Made by a program: the position numbers and the translations under genes. Of a DNA stretch of 38,594 nucleotides, positions 30,813 through 38,594 are shown one piece after another. The notes beneath the pieces were generated by a model. That model did no database searches. It saw nothing but the letters and a program-made list of their open reading frames with translations, and had not been told where the DNA came from. The stretch is from a virus. Position 1 is the first letter of the stretch. Every line of letters begins with the position of its first letter. Location: positions 1 to 38,594 of the IMG/VR virus record IMGVR_UViG_3300027759_003481; one strand, given 5' to 3'.

Positions 30813-31001
30813 TTATTTGACTTCTTTTACACTGCCAACATGCCATTCTTCTACACCGTATTGTGCCCGCATTAACCTACGTGCTTCTGTGGCATTGGCC
30901 GCAGTTACAGTGACATCAATCCAGCCCACATAGTTGGGCTGTTGTATCCGGACCTGTGCAGTCCATAATTTATACTTGGGGTATATATCTCGGGCTTTCA
31001 T
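30813..31001 (-). CDS. Hypothetical small beta-alpha protein (62 aa)
   Basis: I take the ATG at 31001 because it overlaps the TGA of the upstream gene as ATGA; an alternative ATG at 31013 would add four residues. The 62 residues (MKARDIYPKYKLWTAQVRIQ onward) end with a helix containing ANATEARRLMRAQYG, as in small phage modules that modify or bind structural partners. The pattern beta-beta-alpha with A-x-x-A-R is seen again in the larger proteins nearby (for example the W-x-V modules). No catalytic residues are visible. Confidence 0.55.
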   Translation of the reverse strand: MKARDIYPKYKLWTAQVRIQQPNYVGWIDVTVTAANATEARRLMRAQYGVEEWHVGSVKEVK

Positions 31002-33097
31002 TGTCCAGTCCATTTAGCTATCATACTAACACGGTTACTGCTATAAATGCCAGTGCCACGTCGTGTGCTACGCATACTTCTTGTGCCAGGTTCCACAGGA
31101 AATGTGTATCGAGTCCATGTAGCATTTTGATCTACAATTTGATCACCGCGTTTCTGGCGATAATCTTCAGTGGGCTCCATTGCATAACCCTTGACTTCTA
31201 CACCCGGAATTGAATTTAACATAATCCACATGGCCTGTCCATGTTTAGTTTGTGTTGCACCAGCTTCTAAGGTAAGTTTAAGTATGTTGAGAGCAATTCC
31301 GTACAGGGCTTTGCCCAATCCTTGCCCACGGTAATCTGGATCAGTGGCCACAGTTTCTATACCCCAGGTATTGAGTGGGTCAAGCGTGGCAAACAAATCC
31401 AGTTCAGCAACTAATTGGTTGTTGTCGAAGATCATAATTTCCATAAACTCTGGATTTTTTTGGTTTACAGCATAAGAGAATCTACTGCCGCCTGGCAACG
31501 GTTTAGTCTTGGGCATGGTTGCCATTGGCTCAAGTGTATCCTTATCACCAAAGTCACCTTGTGGTATACGGGCTATTTCCATTATGCCAGTGCTACGGCG
31601 TAGGTAAAACTCAAAGTTTTCGTCACCAGGATTATGGTTATCGATAAAGTTTTGATAATACTGTTGGGCTTCTCGTGGGCTATTGGCTTCAAATCGATCA
31701 ATGATGCGTGTAGGATCATTATGATCGTATATTTCCCAACCTTTGCTTAGGCGCTCACGTGCTTGACTCATACGATCGAGTCTACTATCAACTTGTTTAC
31801 CAGCACGACTCAAATAGCTTTGTAGACGTTCATCACTGATTTCGTTGACCGCCTGTGTTTTTGTCAGCGTATAAGTTGCGCCACCCAGCATATCTTCTCT
31901 TGTTAAATCGTAACCGGTACCAGTGATGTAGCGTTGAAGCATTCTATCATATAGTCGAGCTCTACTGCCTGTGGGGTCGTCTTCTTTTTCTGCGCTGAAA
32001 TTCAACATTGCCGGTTTACGCTTGGCGATAAATTGCCGCATGGCAGTCAGCACAGTGGCAAACACTCGAGGAGCATCGCCCTCTCCGGTTATCTCCATGT
32101 TTTCATCACGCTCAAATTCCACCATCCAATTGTTGTCGCCTTGTGCCATGAACAGCACAATTAACTCACTGCCATCATCCAAGTCGGCTGTGGCGTGCCA
32201 GTCACCATTTTGTTTGGTCCACTGAATGGCGTAAGGTTGATCGAACGCTTCTGTTACGCCTTGTTTCTTAACTGGCTTCCAGTGGAACACAGTCATGCCC
32301 ATACTAGGATATTCTTCGTGTGCCCATTTTGCGCCTAGGATGTTCTGTATCACAGGAACAAAATATTTGCGATATAAACTGGTGCGATTGTCTTGTTTAC
32401 TAGTAAACGATACGGCCGGAGGACGAGCTTTGGCCATGTATTCAGGTAATTTTTGTTTAATAATATTAAGAACGGTGCTCAGTATCCGAACTGTGCTTTT
32501 ACTGGCAGAAGTGGGTTGGTCAGGCGCATTATAATCGCCGTTGACTGCAAATGTAATATGCAGGGTATCATTGAATTCACTGCGGTCAAAGAACACATCT
32601 ACCCAGTTACCGTCTACTGTGGCATGAAACAAACTGCGAGATCTTTTGCGATTGGGTTTATATTCAGAGGGTGCATTGCCTAACTCATTTAGTTGAGCAA
32701 CAGGAACCCAGGCCATGATATCCGACTTGTTTAATAAATTGGCTGCGGCCCAGGCTCTGTGATTGCCATCAATGATCCAACCTTTGGCATCTATCACGAT
32801 GGGTCTACGATCCACAAAGTTTGCACTGTATTCACCAGCATGTTCGGGATCTACTGTTTGCACTCGATTGTAAGGATCGGCTTTGGGCTCTTGTTCTTCA
32901 TCGTCGTACTCTTGATCGGGTATGTGTATGCTACTTAACGGAATACGTTTCAACTCGTATTGCGGATAACGCATGATCAAACCCTTTAAGAATCCGCCAC
33001 CCTTTTGATCGTCGGGGTGTATACCATCTACATAATTCCATACCTGTTCAGCAGATGCAGTTTTAACGGATTCTACAACGAACTCACTGGCTTTCAT
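30998..33097 (-). CDS. Multidomain phage protein: CTS, ParB-like, duplicated domain, GNAT acetyltransferase
   Basis: The 699 residues begin MKASEFVVESVKTAS, matching the capsid-targeting pattern with cut V-V-E. A ParB/sulfiredoxin-like region (about 50-135) has VIDAKGWIIDGNHRAWAA, with the DGNHR active loop. Two divergent copies of one domain follow (about 155-275 and 285-415), both with a W-x-D/A start, a helix, and an LY-x-x-x segment (SLYRKYFVPVI; RLYDRMLQRYI). After V-N-E-I comes a helical module (420-455) and a W-E-I-Y-D module. A GNAT acetyltransferase (about 540-650) has TDPDYRGQGLGKALYGIAL, the acetyl-CoA loop. QGVTEAF and QLNELG are further cleavage-like sites. It is likely a packaged polyprotein whose parts act on host targets. 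Confidence 0.72.
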   Translation of the reverse strand: MKASEFVVESVKTASAEQVWNYVDGIHPDDQKGGGFLKGLIMRYPQYELKRIPLSSIHIPDQEYDDEEQEPKADPYNRVQTVDPEHAGEYSANFVDRRPIVIDAKGWIIDGNHRAWAAANLLNKSDIMAWVPVAQLNELGNAPSEYKPNRKRSRSLFHATVDGNWVDVFFDRSEFNDTLHITFAVNGDYNAPDQPTSASKSTVRILSTVLNIIKQKLPEYMAKARPPAVSFTSKQDNRTSLYRKYFVPVIQNILGAKWAHEEYPSMGMTVFHWKPVKKQGVTEAFDQPYAIQWTKQNGDWHATADLDDGSELIVLFMAQGDNNWMVEFERDENMEITGEGDAPRVFATVLTAMRQFIAKRKPAMLNFSAEKEDDPTGSRARLYDRMLQRYITGTGYDLTREDMLGGATYTLTKTQAVNEISDERLQSYLSRAGKQVDSRLDRMSQARERLSKGWEIYDHNDPTRIIDRFEANSPREAQQYYQNFIDNHNPGDENFEFYLRRSTGIMEIARIPQGDFGDKDTLEPMATMPKTKPLPGGSRFSYAVNQKNPEFMEIMIFDNNQLVAELDLFATLDPLNTWGIETVATDPDYRGQGLGKALYGIALNILKLTLEAGATQTKHGQAMWIMLNSIPGVEVKGYAMEPTEDYRQKRGDQIVDQNATWTRYTFPVEPGTRSMRSTRRGTGIYSSNRVSMIAKWTGQ

Positions 33098-33975
33098 CGC
33101 ATAGCAACCTGGTACGATTTAAATTGATCCTGGCGCGACTGTAGGCCTTTTGATGCAGGATTAATTTTTTTAGTTACATCACCAGTATTGCTAAAGTCTT
33201 TTATTTTTGGAGCAACACGATTTTGCCAATACCATACTGCCACTTTGGCTGCAACGTCGGGTCTAGCAGCCAGGTCAGGTTGTTGTGCTAGTGGTAGGCC
33301 CAATGCGGCACCAGCTCTAGTATAATTGTCACGCCCGGTCAATTGTATAAACCCACGTCCTTTGAAACGTTCACCATCACCTTTGACTTTGTTGCCTAGT
33401 ATTCGCGCAGTTTTTTTATGTTGTTCGTACTTTTTGGCAAAATAAGCTGGACTACCACGTTCTTCCATGCTGGCAAAGTTTGCACTTTCGTGAGCACATT
33501 GTGCCAAGAACTGTGCTAGTTCTGTGCCACGAATTCCACTAGCTGTAGCAACTGCTTTCAATTGCTCCACGGGTGCGGCCTGTTGTGCAGGCGCCTGCAC
33601 TTGTGTAGTGGGCGCTTTTGCTTGTGCTACCGGCGCAGTCATTTTTGCATTGGCTGTGCCGCCACCCAAGGCCATGGCTCCAGCTAATGCAGCACCACCT
33701 AGGGCTGATTTCCACCCTTCTTCTAGGTCTTCTAATTCTTCGGCAGGCCAACTAATAAAACTGTTGCCGTTGATGTCGCCAGCACGGACAACGAATGCAC
33801 CACCGTTGTCGTAGCCTTCGTCTTGACCAATTTCCCAACCCATAGAGGCCAAGGCACGTTCAGCACGTGGATCTTCATCACCTTGCCACCACTGTGCAGC
33901 TAACCGATGTAGTATTTCTTCTTCGTTGGGCTCTCTATCATCACCACCTGCAGGTGCAAATTCGTACAGTCTCAT
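33094..33975 (-). CDS. Endolysin-like protein: CTS, signal-peptide-like segment and GH19-type domain
   Basis: The 293 residues start MRLYEFAPAGGDD, a capsid-targeting-like leader. A first small domain runs to about residue 85. Then DLEEGWKSALGG leads into a hydrophobic GGAALAGAMALGGGTANA (93-110), which has the form of a Sec signal peptide with an A-N-A end, directly after an L-E-E site. The C-terminal 155 residues form a GH19 lysozyme/chitinase-like domain: LAQCAHESANFASMEE with the catalytic Glu, and GERFKGRGFIQLTGRDNY, the family signature. It probably cuts peptidoglycan. Whether it acts in lysis or from the virion is open; the buried signal suggests release by cleavage. It overlaps the next gene by ATGA. 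Confidence 0.78.
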   Translation of the reverse strand: MRLYEFAPAGGDDREPNEEEILHRLAAQWWQGDEDPRAERALASMGWEIGQDEGYDNGGAFVVRAGDINGNSFISWPAEELEDLEEGWKSALGGAALAGAMALGGGTANAKMTAPVAQAKAPTTQVQAPAQQAAPVEQLKAVATASGIRGTELAQFLAQCAHESANFASMEERGSPAYFAKKYEQHKKTARILGNKVKGDGERFKGRGFIQLTGRDNYTRAGAALGLPLAQQPDLAARPDVAAKVAVWYWQNRVAPKIKDFSNTGDVTKKINPASKGLQSRQDQFKSYQVAMR

Positions 33976-35193
33976 TTAGCAATTCCAGCGACGACGTGCT
34001 TTGCAGATAGCTTTGTCTGGAGTTTTAGCGCACGAAATATTGTGCATCTTCATTTGACCACGACTGCGTGAGCAATAACTCTTTCTACGCTTTGACGCTT
34101 TACTACCCCGCTTCAACTTGCTGGGTTTAGTAGTCACAGCGGTCTTTAACTTACTCCCAGGATGTTCACGGCGATAAGCATTGACAGCCTTTTGACTCAT
34201 GCCAGCTGTGCGATCTTGTTTGTTGGCCTTTTGCCAATCTTCCATAACAGGTTGTGTTGCCGCAAACACATACAGCTCGTCATCAGTAAGACTTTCTAAA
34301 TCTTCCCAGATTGCTTCTGGATCAACACCGTTGCGTTCGGCAAGCATATTGATGTTTGACTCAATAAGGTCAAACTCTTTTAATAGTTCTTTATCAAGCT
34401 CATTATTTTCTTTAATCCCAAGTCGATTCATATGATATCGGCGTTCTTCAGGAGACATGCCTCTTACTACTCTTGTGCGAACTTCGGATATTCTATTTGC
34501 TAAGTTTATCTGATCATCCATATCATTTAACATTTTTAAGATATTTGTAATATATTCTGGGTTTGCCTGCATCTTAGCACCAATACTATCAATATCTTTT
34601 TGTAAATCTTGTCCTATAAACGGTCCTAATTCTAATAACTGATTTCTAATAGCAGCCTGCGGGCCGCGATGTGGCAAATAATTAGCAGGGATATTTACAA
34701 AATAACATCCTAACAAAATCATCTTCCAGTCAGATTCAGTTAATCGGTAATCAGATGCTTTTGCTTGCCCCGGAGCACCCATAGCGGCCAAGCCTGCTGT
34801 GGCACCAGCACCTTTAAGGAAATCTCTACGACTGATCTCGTCAAGTTCTTCACTTTCGTTGGGCACACAGTTACGCACCTGGCCGCCATTCTTGCCTTTT
34901 TTAGTGCCTTCGGCATGTTTGCCTGGCCAGCAACGAGTATAACCATTGGCGTCCTTTTGGCCTTTTCGAATTTCCATGACATTGCCATGTGTTTGGCACA
35001 TGCCACAGTCTTCACAGACCATTTCCATCTCAACACTTTCGTTGTGCTTCTTTTTACCAGCACAATGAGCACGTTGGCTGAAGCCTTTGGGATGGCTGCA
35101 GTTGATACTACTCTTGTATTTTTGGCTCCACTTTTCTGTTATAAATTCGTTAGATCTCATGTTATCACCTTCAAATAGTTCATACAATGTCAT
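33976..35193 (-). CDS. Cys-rich modular phage protein with internal Tat-like signal
   Basis: The 405 residues begin MTLYELFEGDN and then MRSNEFITEKW, two leader-like sequences in tandem; the second fits the capsid-targeting pattern, with I-T-E as the cut. The start at 35193 makes an ATGA overlap, and a second ATG at 35160 has AAGGTG upstream. Two Cys-rich modules follow: INCSHPKGFSQRAHCAGKKK (30-49) and a CEDCGMC (60-66) with YTRCWPGKHAEG. After ESEELDE comes ISRRDFLKGAGATAGLAAMG (120-139), a full twin-arginine signal with AKA at its end. A helical domain follows, and a basic Cys-containing tail (KRRKSYCSRSRG, then KARRRWNC). The modules probably bind zinc or nucleic acid; no enzyme is recognised. 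Confidence 0.65.
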   Translation of the reverse strand: MTLYELFEGDNMRSNEFITEKWSQKYKSSINCSHPKGFSQRAHCAGKKKHNESVEMEMVCEDCGMCQTHGNVMEIRKGQKDANGYTRCWPGKHAEGTKKGKNGGQVRNCVPNESEELDEISRRDFLKGAGATAGLAAMGAPGQAKASDYRLTESDWKMILLGCYFVNIPANYLPHRGPQAAIRNQLLELGPFIGQDLQKDIDSIGAKMQANPEYITNILKMLNDMDDQINLANRISEVRTRVVRGMSPEERRYHMNRLGIKENNELDKELLKEFDLIESNINMLAERNGVDPEAIWEDLESLTDDELYVFAATQPVMEDWQKANKQDRTAGMSQKAVNAYRREHPGSKLKTAVTTKPSKLKRGSKASKRRKSYCSRSRGQMKMHNISCAKTPDKAICKARRRWNC

Positions 35194-38100
35194 TTTTTCT
35201 GACCTCTACGCATATTTAGTTGCCACCGAGCCAGCTGTCCTTTACGTCCTTTGGCATGACTGGCTTTTTCTAATTGGGCCATAGTAGCACCTTTAGGAAT
35301 ACCGTGTCGCTGACTGTCTCCCGGACGGCCTGGACCTTTACCGTCGGCAAAGTTTTCGTTCAATCCAAATCCATCCCGGACAGCGGTCATTAGCTCGCTC
35401 ACACTGGCTTCAGTAGTTGGCAGTGTATCTTGTTCGCCAATGTGCGGGTCGCCTTCTTCTACAGTGCCTAAAGCATAGGTGAACATGCTGTCGCCCTCAT
35501 TGTCAACAATAACAATATAGTATTCATCAGCTACTGCGCCACGGGTGCTGAACATAAAAGAGCCATCGTCCTGACGTTGGCCTTTCCAACCCATGGCTTT
35601 CATTGCGCTGTTAATTTTGTTAACAGCTTCGGGCCAAGGTAGCATGTTTCCCAATGATGCTTCTGGCACGTATTGCTTAAATTCTTTTACAAGTTTTTTA
35701 TATGTGTAAGCAAGTGGGTCTTCTTTTTTCTTGTCGGTATCTACTTTAATTGTTGAGGTTGCGGGTTTGACCAATGGTTGTGGTTTTAGTTTAGGAGGTG
35801 TTGTAGGTAAACGGACGCCTGCACTGCTGACAGGATCTATAGATTCAATCATTACTGGCAAAACTTCGATTTGTACCAAATCTGTATCCGGAGCATTGCT
35901 TCTTATCCAATCCAAGGCAATGCCATTGGCATCTGATTGCACGTTACCTGCACCGCTGAATCTATATAATTCTTGTCCAGTGTCAACATTTACCACTCGC
36001 CACTGTCCTGAAAACTGATTGCCAAAGTTTTGTGCTACATCAGGTTCTATGTCCTGAATAGGATCAGTTAATCTAGCCTGTAAGTCTGCGCTGTCTTGAC
36101 GATCGTCACGACTCTGAGGTTTTTGTTGTTCAGGTTCAGCAATACGTTTGGCCAACTTGGCACGTGGTGTAAGTGTTTTAGGATCCACATATGGGCGAAC
36201 ATTAAAGCCTATGCCTTGGTTGGCATACTTGTCAAATACTTGATTGGCGGCTGCATCTCGGTTTGCACCTTGCACTATTTCAAGAGTTGCGCCAGTCTTG
36301 ACATCATACACTTCCCACTGTTGATTGTCACTCATGTTGACCAACTGATATTCACCCGAGTCTAAGGCTTCACGACCGTATTTCATCCATACTCTATTTT
36401 TAACTTCGTCTTCTTGGAAGCCACGGTATTCAGCACCTGGTACTGCGGTCCAGACGCCGTTGACCTTTTGATACAACTTGAAATACTGATTAATTTTCTT
36501 TTCATTGCCAATGGTCTTTTCAGCCCATTTTTTCTTGAGTTGTTCTGCTGTAAGCTCACCTGCGGCATACTGACTAAACAAGGCCAATTGGCTGTCGCCT
36601 TCAGGAGCAACCAGCTTGTATAACTTTTTAGCAAACTCTCTGCGTTCGGCACTGGGATCGGCTGCTATCTGCATAGCACGGGCATAACGCAACATAGTGC
36701 TGGATAATTTTTCAGGATCGGCTGATTCTTCGGCTAACCAATCACCTCCGGCACTGCGGAATTCTATGTAGCCATTTTGTATATGAGCACTGGTATACTT
36801 GCCCTGTCCTACACCTTTTTGTATTTCACGCTGTGCTAATTCAAGTAAGCCGTGTTGCATCAGCTTCATAGCACCTGCTGGGTCTGAACGACCTGATTTG
36901 AGATTTTCACGAAAGCCCTTCATGGCTGACTTGGTGTAGGTGTTGGCTTCACGACCAAATTGTTGTAGAACATATTCGTCACCTAGGAACAAGATCAGTT
37001 TCAAGTAGTCAACATCGCCACCTCGGTAAGGCACGCTCACACCCATGTGCAGGCCGGTGGTGCTGTTGGTATAAGCATTACCCTCACTGGAGTTGGCCCA
37101 GTCGGTAACTTGTTGTAATTTTTCCAGGGCCACTAACAGGGGCATTGGCGGGCTTACTATTTCTAAACCCATATCTTCACGGTCATCTGGGTCCAAACTT
37201 GAGTCTGGCTCTACAATCCATAGGCCTTCTTTGCGTGTGGTGCTGTGATAATTACTACTTACTTTGACTGGCATGTCCACAACACTTTGTAAACTGTTGC
37301 CAATGTCGTCCCAATCACGTCCGCCATCATTGCCACCACCACCAGTCATGTAGGGCCAGTCTAGGCTATACTCACTGGCCACATCACTCATCCAGCGTAG
37401 GCCTGCATCATCAAAGAATCCTGAATCGTCATCAATTTGATAATTGTCGCGGAAATCATTCAGTGCGGCATCCCAGTTTGCACCTTCTTTTCTTACTTCG
37501 TCGGCTACTAGATCATCCAACAGTCCTTCGGCTTCGCTTTGTGCATTTAAGTATTTTTCATACAGGGGATTTTCTTTTGCGTATGTTTGCTGTTCGCTTG
37601 ATCGGGTAAATTTAGGAGCCTGTTCTCCAGCTTTGATGATCTCATTTATTTCGTCATCTGACAGGTCCAACAAGGCCAACTGTTTTTGTATCTCGCTGTC
37701 CTCATCCCAATCGCCTTCGTCAACCAGCACTTTGCGAATCAAATCTTCGGCTTCGTCTCTGAATTCTCGAATCATTTGTTCGTCGTACCACTCGTAATAG
37801 GCTTCATCCAACTGTTCTTGTAAACGTGCTTCTTGTCTGGAACTTAGGCCACCATACTCGCCGTTATTAAAAAACTCTATAATTTGACTGATACTGCGGA
37901 CACGCTCGTCGGCATCGTAGTCGGGTTCCATTTCATAGTCGCTGTCACCATTGTTAGTGGTGTCACGAAAGATCAATTCCGCTTCAAAACCAGCACGTAT
38001 GCCTTCAGCTTCGGGACTAGTGGCCCATTTCATCAGGGCCGATGGTGACATTTTAACTTCGTCTAACTGTTCACTTTCGGCCAAGGCAAACAGTTTCTTT

Positions 38101-38594
38101 TCTGCTACTTGCTTGTTAAACATTGTATAACTACGCAAGAATTCTTTTTCTTGACGTGTAAGTTCGCGTCCTTGTTTTACTTTGGCCAATAAAAATTTAT
38201 AATAATCTGCTTCGTCACGATTCTTGGATACCGGTGCTTGAATATTTTCTTTAAACTGCGCCAGCTCTAATGCTAATTTTTCAAACAGGCCATTGGCCTT
38301 GGCAATTTGCGGAACGCCTTGTTTGTTTGTTTTGAGATTTAATTTGTTGGCTTCTTTGCCAATTTGCCCAGGCTTGATGTCCACTGTGAGTGCCATACTA
38401 TAACGTGGGTCTTTGGCCTGTGCCTTGGTAGGAATGTAGCCCGATGCACCTTCGTTGGTTGGCCCAGACGGCTTTTGCTGATTTTGTTTTTGTAGTTGAT
38501 ATAGCCGACTTTGATTTTGTGCGTTGACTTCACCGCGCTGAGCACGGATAAAATTGTTTAGTTCTTGAGCAACATCGGCTTGTATCACTGTGTT
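35190..38594 (-). CDS. Large modular phage protein with amidoligase-like domain, 5' end cut by the window
   Basis: The frame is open to the right edge, so the N-terminus is missing; the in-frame GTG at 38588 is only a possible start. Counting from it there are 1132 residues. An amidoligase-like (glutamine-synthetase-fold) domain is interrupted by acidic insertions. EGIRAGFEAELIF (195-207) gives the E-x-E site, WIVEPDSSLDP (457-467) the D-x-S, GLEIVSPPM (474-482) the E-I-V-S-P, TTGLHMGVSVP (510-520) the T-G-x-H, and GYIEFRSAGGDW (606-617) the E-F-R. Two W-x-V/TG modules follow, then a basic end with GRPGDSQRHGIPKGATMAQL. L-D-E, L-A-E and L-N-E sites separate the parts. The domain would form amide bonds on proteins or small molecules. 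Confidence 0.68.
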   Translation of the reverse strand, partial: NTVIQADVAQELNNFIRAQRGEVNAQNQSRLYQLQKQNQQKPSGPTNEGASGYIPTKAQAKDPRYSMALTVDIKPGQIGKEANKLNLKTNKQGVPQIAKANGLFEKLALELAQFKENIQAPVSKNRDEADYYKFLLAKVKQGRELTRQEKEFLRSYTMFNKQVAEKKLFALAESEQLDEVKMSPSALMKWATSPEAEGIRAGFEAELIFRDTTNNGDSDYEMEPDYDADERVRSISQIIEFFNNGEYGGLSSRQEARLQEQLDEAYYEWYDEQMIREFRDEAEDLIRKVLVDEGDWDEDSEIQKQLALLDLSDDEINEIIKAGEQAPKFTRSSEQQTYAKENPLYEKYLNAQSEAEGLLDDLVADEVRKEGANWDAALNDFRDNYQIDDDSGFFDDAGLRWMSDVASEYSLDWPYMTGGGGNDGGRDWDDIGNSLQSVVDMPVKVSSNYHSTTRKEGLWIVEPDSSLDPDDREDMGLEIVSPPMPLLVALEKLQQVTDWANSSEGNAYTNSTTGLHMGVSVPYRGGDVDYLKLILFLGDEYVLQQFGREANTYTKSAMKGFRENLKSGRSDPAGAMKLMQHGLLELAQREIQKGVGQGKYTSAHIQNGYIEFRSAGGDWLAEESADPEKLSSTMLRYARAMQIAADPSAERREFAKKLYKLVAPEGDSQLALFSQYAAGELTAEQLKKKWAEKTIGNEKKINQYFKLYQKVNGVWTAVPGAEYRGFQEDEVKNRVWMKYGREALDSGEYQLVNMSDNQQWEVYDVKTGATLEIVQGANRDAAANQVFDKYANQGIGFNVRPYVDPKTLTPRAKLAKRIAEPEQQKPQSRDDRQDSADLQARLTDPIQDIEPDVAQNFGNQFSGQWRVVNVDTGQELYRFSGAGNVQSDANGIALDWIRSNAPDTDLVQIEVLPVMIESIDPVSSAGVRLPTTPPKLKPQPLVKPATSTIKVDTDKKKEDPLAYTYKKLVKEFKQYVPEASLGNMLPWPEAVNKINSAMKAMGWKGQRQDDGSFMFSTRGAVADEYYIVIVDNEGDSMFTYALGTVEEGDPHIGEQDTLPTTEASVSELMTAVRDGFGLNENFADGKGPGRPGDSQRHGIPKGATMAQLEKASHAKGRKGQLARWQLNMRRGQKK

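Follow-up and report, generated by a model that had tools for sequence, protein, structure and literature searches.

How could an export signal act when it lies deep inside the protein that carries it? The question is raised by a gene on the minus strand of the window, by which we mean the whole 38,594-nt stretch of viral DNA analysed here. Its product, a 405-residue protein designated P0001, had been described in the first-pass annotation as containing an internal twin-arginine (Tat) signal directly behind the residues EELDE, with the proposal that a cut at this point would make the signal N-terminal and allow the released part to be exported by the host Tat system after injection. The relevant features of P0001 are as follows, with slashes in sequences marking predicted cleavage points.

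33976 to 35193, minus strand: P0001, a modular protein with an N-module, a hidden Tat signal plus passenger, and a C-module (from the ORF translation and relatives)
35134 to 35160, minus strand: MRSNEFITE (residues 12-20), with likeness to the T4 internal-protein capsid-targeting sequence MKTYQEFIAE
34837 to 34845, minus strand: LDE (residues 117-119), predicted prohead-protease site with the cut after E119 (from the gp21 motif, PMC9026906, and site statistics)
34753 to 34836, minus strand: hidden Tat signal ISRRDFLKGAGATAGLAAMGAPGQAKA/S (residues 120-147; PF10518, TIGR01409)
34756 to 34764, minus strand: AKA of signal-peptidase type within the hidden Tat signal (residues 144-146)
34375 to 34755, minus strand: passenger (residues 147-273), ending at a second site, LKE/FDLIES
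33985 to 34218, minus strand: part of the C-module with DUF6321 (residues 326-403), common to many cyanophages and pelagiphages

A Tat Signal in the Interior of a Modular Protein

The translation of this region reads ...VPNESEELDE ISRRDFLKGAGATAGLAAMGAPGQAKAS DYRL..., with E119 ending the LDE and AKA (residues 144-146) preceding S147, and residues 120-147 correspond exactly to positions 34836 down to 34753. The Pfam model PF10518 (TAT_signal) matches residues 119-139 (E 3e-7; 30.4 bits against a cut-off of 22.7) and the NCBIfam model TIGR01409 matches residues 120-146 (E 1e-6; 28.9 bits against a cut-off of 16.7), such that both Tat models exceed their curated cut-offs and the segment is the full twin-arginine signal that it had been taken to be. 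A chance Tat-like motif is ruled out by these scores together with the upstream-blind scans described below. The internal position of the signal also holds, although its distance from the N-terminus requires refinement. Relatives of P0001 start with MKANEFLTE, MKAYEFITE and similar sequences that align with Met12, and because these proteins begin at that position, the true start of P0001 is probably Met12, at position 35160. This start would bring the distance between the N-terminus and the signal down from 119 to about 108 residues. The N-terminal position that is usual for Tat signals is thus absent in the P0001 precursor, and would be attained only if the LDE site were cut.

The modules on either side of the signal are a Cys-rich module (residues 12-113) and a module ending in DUF6321 (residues 274-405), both of which recur in many cyanophage and pelagiphage proteins. 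Between them is a slot whose contents vary among relatives. The simplest of these have only a single site at this position (NESEELDE/EFDLIES or NESAELTE/EFDLIEN), and among the direct relatives the whole Tat-passenger cassette is either there or missing, as a unit. The slot holds a Tat signal with its passenger in P0001 and in L002, and other relatives carry unrelated inserts in it, mostly framed by sites. Sites of the L/I-x-E type occur in P0001 at FITE (residues 17-20), LDE (117-119) and LKE (271-273), the last of which closes the insert as LKE/FDLIES. In L240 (contig G037), a P0001-type N-module is followed by NESVAE/ADMSRRGFLGALAG, so that NESVAE/ADMSRRGFL occupies the place of NESEELDE/ISRRDFL in the window protein, with a different site and spacing. 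The P0001 passenger is predicted, at low confidence, to be mostly helical; a search for its relatives yielded none that are recognisable, and it bears no convincing similarity to other passengers. The structure model of P0001 is poor (pLDDT 46) and was left out of fold searching.

Most Internal Tat Signals Lie Behind Glutamate Sites in Unrelated Proteins

The DNA of 2.9 million virus contigs was scanned with the Tat core only, in two forms and with no upstream requirement. These scans revealed 59 distinct Tat signals, 47 of which lie past residue 35 and are considered internal. Within this internal set, 41 of the 47 distinct signals begin 0-6 residues behind [LIVM]xE, compared with a background of about 11% in the same proteins. 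After similar upstream sequences had been collapsed, the site remained in 35 of 41 contexts, again relative to 11% expected from the same proteins. The nominal p-value for this coupling (1e-27) is not to be taken literally, because the string GVAEGSLEE recurs and the upstream contexts are consequently not fully independent; [LIVM]xE is, moreover, a common tripeptide. The coupling of internal Tat signals to [LIVM]xE is nonetheless more than chance.

The arrangement is not confined to one sequence. Tat cores occur 2-4 residues behind [LIVM]xE in unrelated upstream contexts, with site and spacing variants that include LDE/I, LEE/I, LSE/I, VAE/ADM, VDE/ADM, IDE/ADM, LEE/DI and VQE/DI. The twin arginines and their spacing from the glutamate are conserved across dozens of virus contigs, which meets the test that had been set beforehand as capable of refuting the proposal. 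A strict form, LDE[IV]xRRxFLK, gave 12 matches in the virus contigs; 11 of these are genuine and belong to proteins that are unrelated to each other. Applied to 257 Gb of genomes from bacteria and archaea, it produced eight raw matches and no genuine Tat signal. A clear AxA is missing from some of the h-regions (L104 and L110, for example). The proteins L108, L111, L162, L164 and L165 are exceptions that lack GVAEG or LDE module joints. Their internal Tat-like cores, which are without [LIVM]xE, apparently belong to other kinds of phages. A further exception, L163, reads TDE/AIDRR.

The hidden Tat signals of L154/L226, L156, L227 and L089 follow an N-terminal domain resembling nucleotidyltransferases (PGGFHPFHAGH), and the string QGVAEG is a recurring module joint in very long proteins (L093, L084, L096, L157 and others). 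The QGVAEG joint fits a cut at [LIV]xE, and may also aid the shuffling of modules by recombination.

Sec-like Signals Obey the Same Rule

The gene adjacent to P0001 encodes a second protein of this kind, and the gene beyond it has a capsid-targeting-like start.

33094 to 33975, minus strand: P0002 (293 aa), with an N-module, a site, a Sec-like signal and a GH19 domain
33718 to 33726, minus strand: LEE (residues 84-86), predicted prohead-protease site in P0002 with the cut after E86
33646 to 33717, minus strand: hidden Sec-like signal GWKSALGGAALAGAMALGGGTANA/K of P0002 (residues 87-110)
33205 to 33540, minus strand: GH19 domain of P0002 (chitinase class I / endolysin; PF00182, phrog_181)
30998 to 33097, minus strand: 699-aa modular protein with the start MKASEFVVE and with DUF6934 and acetyltransferase modules

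P0002 reads DLEE/GWKSALGGAALAGAMALGGGTANA/K ahead of its GH19 domain (PF00182, E 1.8e-13; phrog_181 endolysin, E 4e-39), which constitutes the second hidden export signal in the window. A glutamate immediately precedes the signal in all 20 of the P0002/GH19 relatives with a complete signal, in the [LIVM]xE form in 18, and the upstream modules of these 20 proteins differ widely. One relative, L268, carries a Tat signal (VIDE/DISRRGFL), and the remaining ones have the GWK Sec-like form. L272, L286 and L288 have the N-module of P0002 but no GH19 part, and in them its boundary falls at the site. An AlphaFold model of P0002 (pLDDT 74) has two folded parts flanking a low-confidence stretch at residues 85-132; used solely to place the site at the edge of an unfolded linker, it puts the predicted LEE at the boundary of this stretch. 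Among cultured phages, the GH19 relatives in Motura, S-CREM2, S-B68 and LMM01 have other architectures and not the hidden-signal arrangement.

For Sec-like signals in general, we searched for internal segments that combine a basic residue with an uncharged stretch rich in A and G and with an AxA end, again without considering upstream sequence. [LIVM]xE precedes 39 of the 102 internal AxA signals, and the third residue is instead D in 2, Q in 6, N in 2, S in 2, A in 2, T in 1 and K in none, although, overall, [LIVM]x is followed by E, D and K at about equal frequency. [LIVM]xR is found before 38 of the 102, a count that Tat cores, with their twin arginines, would in our view explain. Sec-like signals thus obey the same site rule as Tat signals, and the pattern is broader than the first-pass annotation had it. 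A single case of another type, PVIDE/GIKKSAAATALATCMAAGGTLSGC, lies near residue 725 of an 890-aa ORF (L106) and has a lipobox-like end, hinting at hidden lipoprotein signals.

No hidden export signal was seen in the 699-aa protein. On the other side of P0001, positions 35190-38588 encode a 1132-aa modular protein with an Amidoligase_2 domain (PF12224), whose LDE joint, ESEQLDE/VKMSPSALMKW, recurs in relatives. An Rfam search gave no match within the window.

Leader Sequences, Protease and Phage Group

The T4 prohead protease gp21 cleaves behind L/I-X-E, and proteins are targeted into the head if they bear just the first ten residues of IPIII (PMC9026906). The N-termini MRSNEFITE and MKISEILVE resemble the T4 capsid-targeting sequence MKTYQEFIAE, and a targeting role for them is inferred from this similarity only. 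Starts of this type occur in 14 of the 44 complete hidden-Tat proteins; in three large contigs they are found at 18 of 817 ORFs and at 2 of 4204 internal methionines. In contig G007, they cluster in two stretches, at 73-78 kb and 128-146 kb (L208, L211, L212), the products of which start with MKITEILTE, MKSHEFLPE, MRIQELLTE and the like. These clusters are probable batteries of packaged proteins.

A gp21 gene (PF03420) adjoins gp23 (PF07068) in three of the largest related contigs, and the gp23 proteins encoded there contain YLAE/S, YLTE/T or LLAE/S just before the conserved mature part, where the T4 equivalent is FLTE/A (LTE65/A). A gp21 match was obtained in just 3 of the 24 contigs with Tat matches, and G002 (343 kb, with two hidden signals) has neither gp21 nor gp23 by Pfam. 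Both are also absent from the 38.6-kb window, which is a fragment.

By DNA polymerase and gp23, the group is placed with jumbo myoviruses such as Phosso, Atu_ph07 and GAP32. The carriers of hidden signals are large uncultured phages of freshwater type, and all examples come from metagenomic contigs. Profile searches of the whole genomes of the closest cultured relatives, Atu_ph07, GAP32, XaC1 and Vibrio 2.275, found no Tat signal, and no isolate with the arrangement is therefore known. In 50,697 phage records, tblastn with the combined site and signal found no match either, but this search was insensitive, with its short query masked.

A Proposed Route from Prohead to Periplasm

These observations lead us to propose that P0001 is cargo of a jumbo myovirus in the manner of the T4 internal proteins, being packaged, cut by a gp21-type protease, ejected and exported through Tat. 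No experiment bears on this reading, to which we assign a probability of roughly 0.6. The conservation of the arginine pair and its spacing supports the first-pass interpretation. What the sequences show is the signals themselves, their place right behind protease-like sites, module boundaries that fall at these sites, the envelope character of the recognisable passengers, and gp21 and gp23 in three of the largest related contigs; cleavage, packaging, injection and export are inferred, as is any biological use of the exported modules. The capsid-targeting sequence MRSNEFITE would bring the whole precursor into the prohead, and the signal would be unusable in the producing cell because it is buried. 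A gp21-type protease would then cut after L/I/V-x-E at every module joint, a step inferred from the sequence rule; in P0001, the predicted cuts follow LDE119 and then LKE273, leaving a passenger that starts with ISRRDFLKG. Together with the DNA, the modules would be ejected into the next cell; there, the host Tat system could read the exposed signal and send the passenger to the periplasm or membrane, with the neighbouring GH19 module using its Sec-like signal. The hosts of these phages are unidentified, and a host Tat system is assumed. The arrangement suggests a signal that is exposed within the virus particle and acts solely in the next infected cell.

The passengers of hidden signals belong to many unrelated groups. 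Pfam matches among them are Peptidase_M48, TonB_2 (the TonB C-terminal domain), LysM with SLT (transglycosylase) and GH19. Proteins of these recognisable families would be expected to work in the cell envelope, in keeping with export. L082, L094 and L113 carry a passenger of one family behind a Tat signal, L093 carries it behind a Sec-like one, and the RR core is retained across unrelated passengers.

Among the alternatives, the one that we take most seriously, though we think it unlikely, is that the signals are used in the producing cell, where a late protease would free envelope-active modules (GH19, SLT, peptidase) and so tie export, and perhaps lysis, to head maturation. Several passengers are indeed muralytic, and T4 head assembly occurs on the inner membrane (PMC9026906). 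The T4 protease, however, works within the prohead, and its products remain there or exit as small fragments (PMC9026906); many passengers are non-lytic (the TonB C-terminal domain, helical modules of unknown function), and packaging is suggested by the capsid-targeting-like N-termini. The data still allow for export in the producing cell. We find it slightly harder to accept that the buried segments are not working export signals at all, but relics of captured bacterial secreted genes or linkers between domains that interact with membranes. Such an origin would accommodate their distance from the precursor N-terminus and the h-regions that lack a clear AxA (L104, L110), but relics would not have kept their link to the site in 35 of the 41 contexts. 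Nor would it account for the same passenger family appearing behind either a Tat or a Sec-like signal, always directly behind the Glu site (L268 versus the other GH19 relatives; L082, L094 and L113 versus L093), or for an RR core kept across unrelated passengers.

Two further explanations are less likely still. Translation could start internally and yield a shorter product in which the Tat signal is N-terminal in the normal way, the site being incidental, and the window protein does have a GTG (Val110) ten codons before I120. A test at the DNA level found no enrichment of such start codons: among the 47 internal cases, an in-frame ATG within 22 codons is present in 43% versus 40%, Shine-Dalgarno-like starts in 13% versus 9%, and seven cases contain no start codon whatsoever in that stretch. 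An internal start would also leave the link to [LIVM]xE unexplained, and we regard it as improbable. Least credible of all is that the pattern arose by coincidence, or that it reflects one mobile Tat cassette with a fortuitous LDE or LEE in its n-region. GVAEGSLEEIDRRGFLKGLGA does recur almost unchanged, and part of the set therefore shares descent, but the residues and spacings at the site differ (LDE/I, VAE/ADM, IDE/ADM, VQE/DI), different types of signal stand behind the sites, and no genuine cellular Tat signal of the strict form exists in the 257 Gb searched.

The proposal of packaged and exported cargo might extend into a general addressing code, in which multi-module head cargo is cut by the protease at every joint, and Tat, Sec-like or lipoprotein signals lying right behind a cut sort the modules to periplasm or membrane; we consider the evidence for this extension evenly balanced. 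Sorting in the next host would precede any phage gene expression, and burying the signal would stop the producing cell from exporting the cargo. Most discussion of phage proteins that enter the cell together with the DNA treats them as cytoplasmic actors or as builders of the DNA channel. If the proposal is correct, a phage could furnish a new host's periplasm or membrane with ready-made enzymes as soon as infection begins, ejected proteins of uncultured phages could be found by the sequence rule of an export signal directly behind [LIV]xE, and there might be a route for delivering proteins to the bacterial periplasm.

Comparison with Known Systems

We found no published precedent for hidden export signals in the open-access literature. 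Processed internal proteins of the T4 type are already known, and it is possibly the principle of delivery that is new. The signal of P0001 has the S-R-R-x-F-L-K core, the uncharged A/G-rich h-region and the AxA end of Tat signal peptides, but unlike the usual ones it would become N-terminal only via the predicted phage protease cut. A phage-encoded Tat signal is also present in the cultured Sinorhizobium phage Phosso, of the same phage group (MSNIGNISRRNFLRR...), but there it is an ordinary N-terminal signal on a small protein, with no site before it.

Extensive prohead proteolysis occurs in phiKZ and SPN3US, where many head and ejected proteins are cut after x-x-Glu (PMC9026906, PMC10052503). 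The phiKZ motif is S/A-x-E, unlike the L/I-x-E found here, and no report of export signals behind the phiKZ or SPN3US cuts was found in the open-access literature. The closest parallel is with T4 IPI-IPIII and Alt, which have a capsid-targeting sequence and undergo gp21 cleavage (PMC9026906, PMC3012670). Similarities with the T4 internal proteins include a short N-terminus resembling M-K-x-x-E-F-[IL]-x-E, the L/I-x-E motif, diverse cargo behind a conserved leader, and the presence of gp21 and gp23 in related contigs. The T4 internal proteins lose a leader in a single cut and function in the cytoplasm. In the phages described here, several modules are strung together and every joint has a site; a Tat or Sec-like signal stands at the start of some of these modules.
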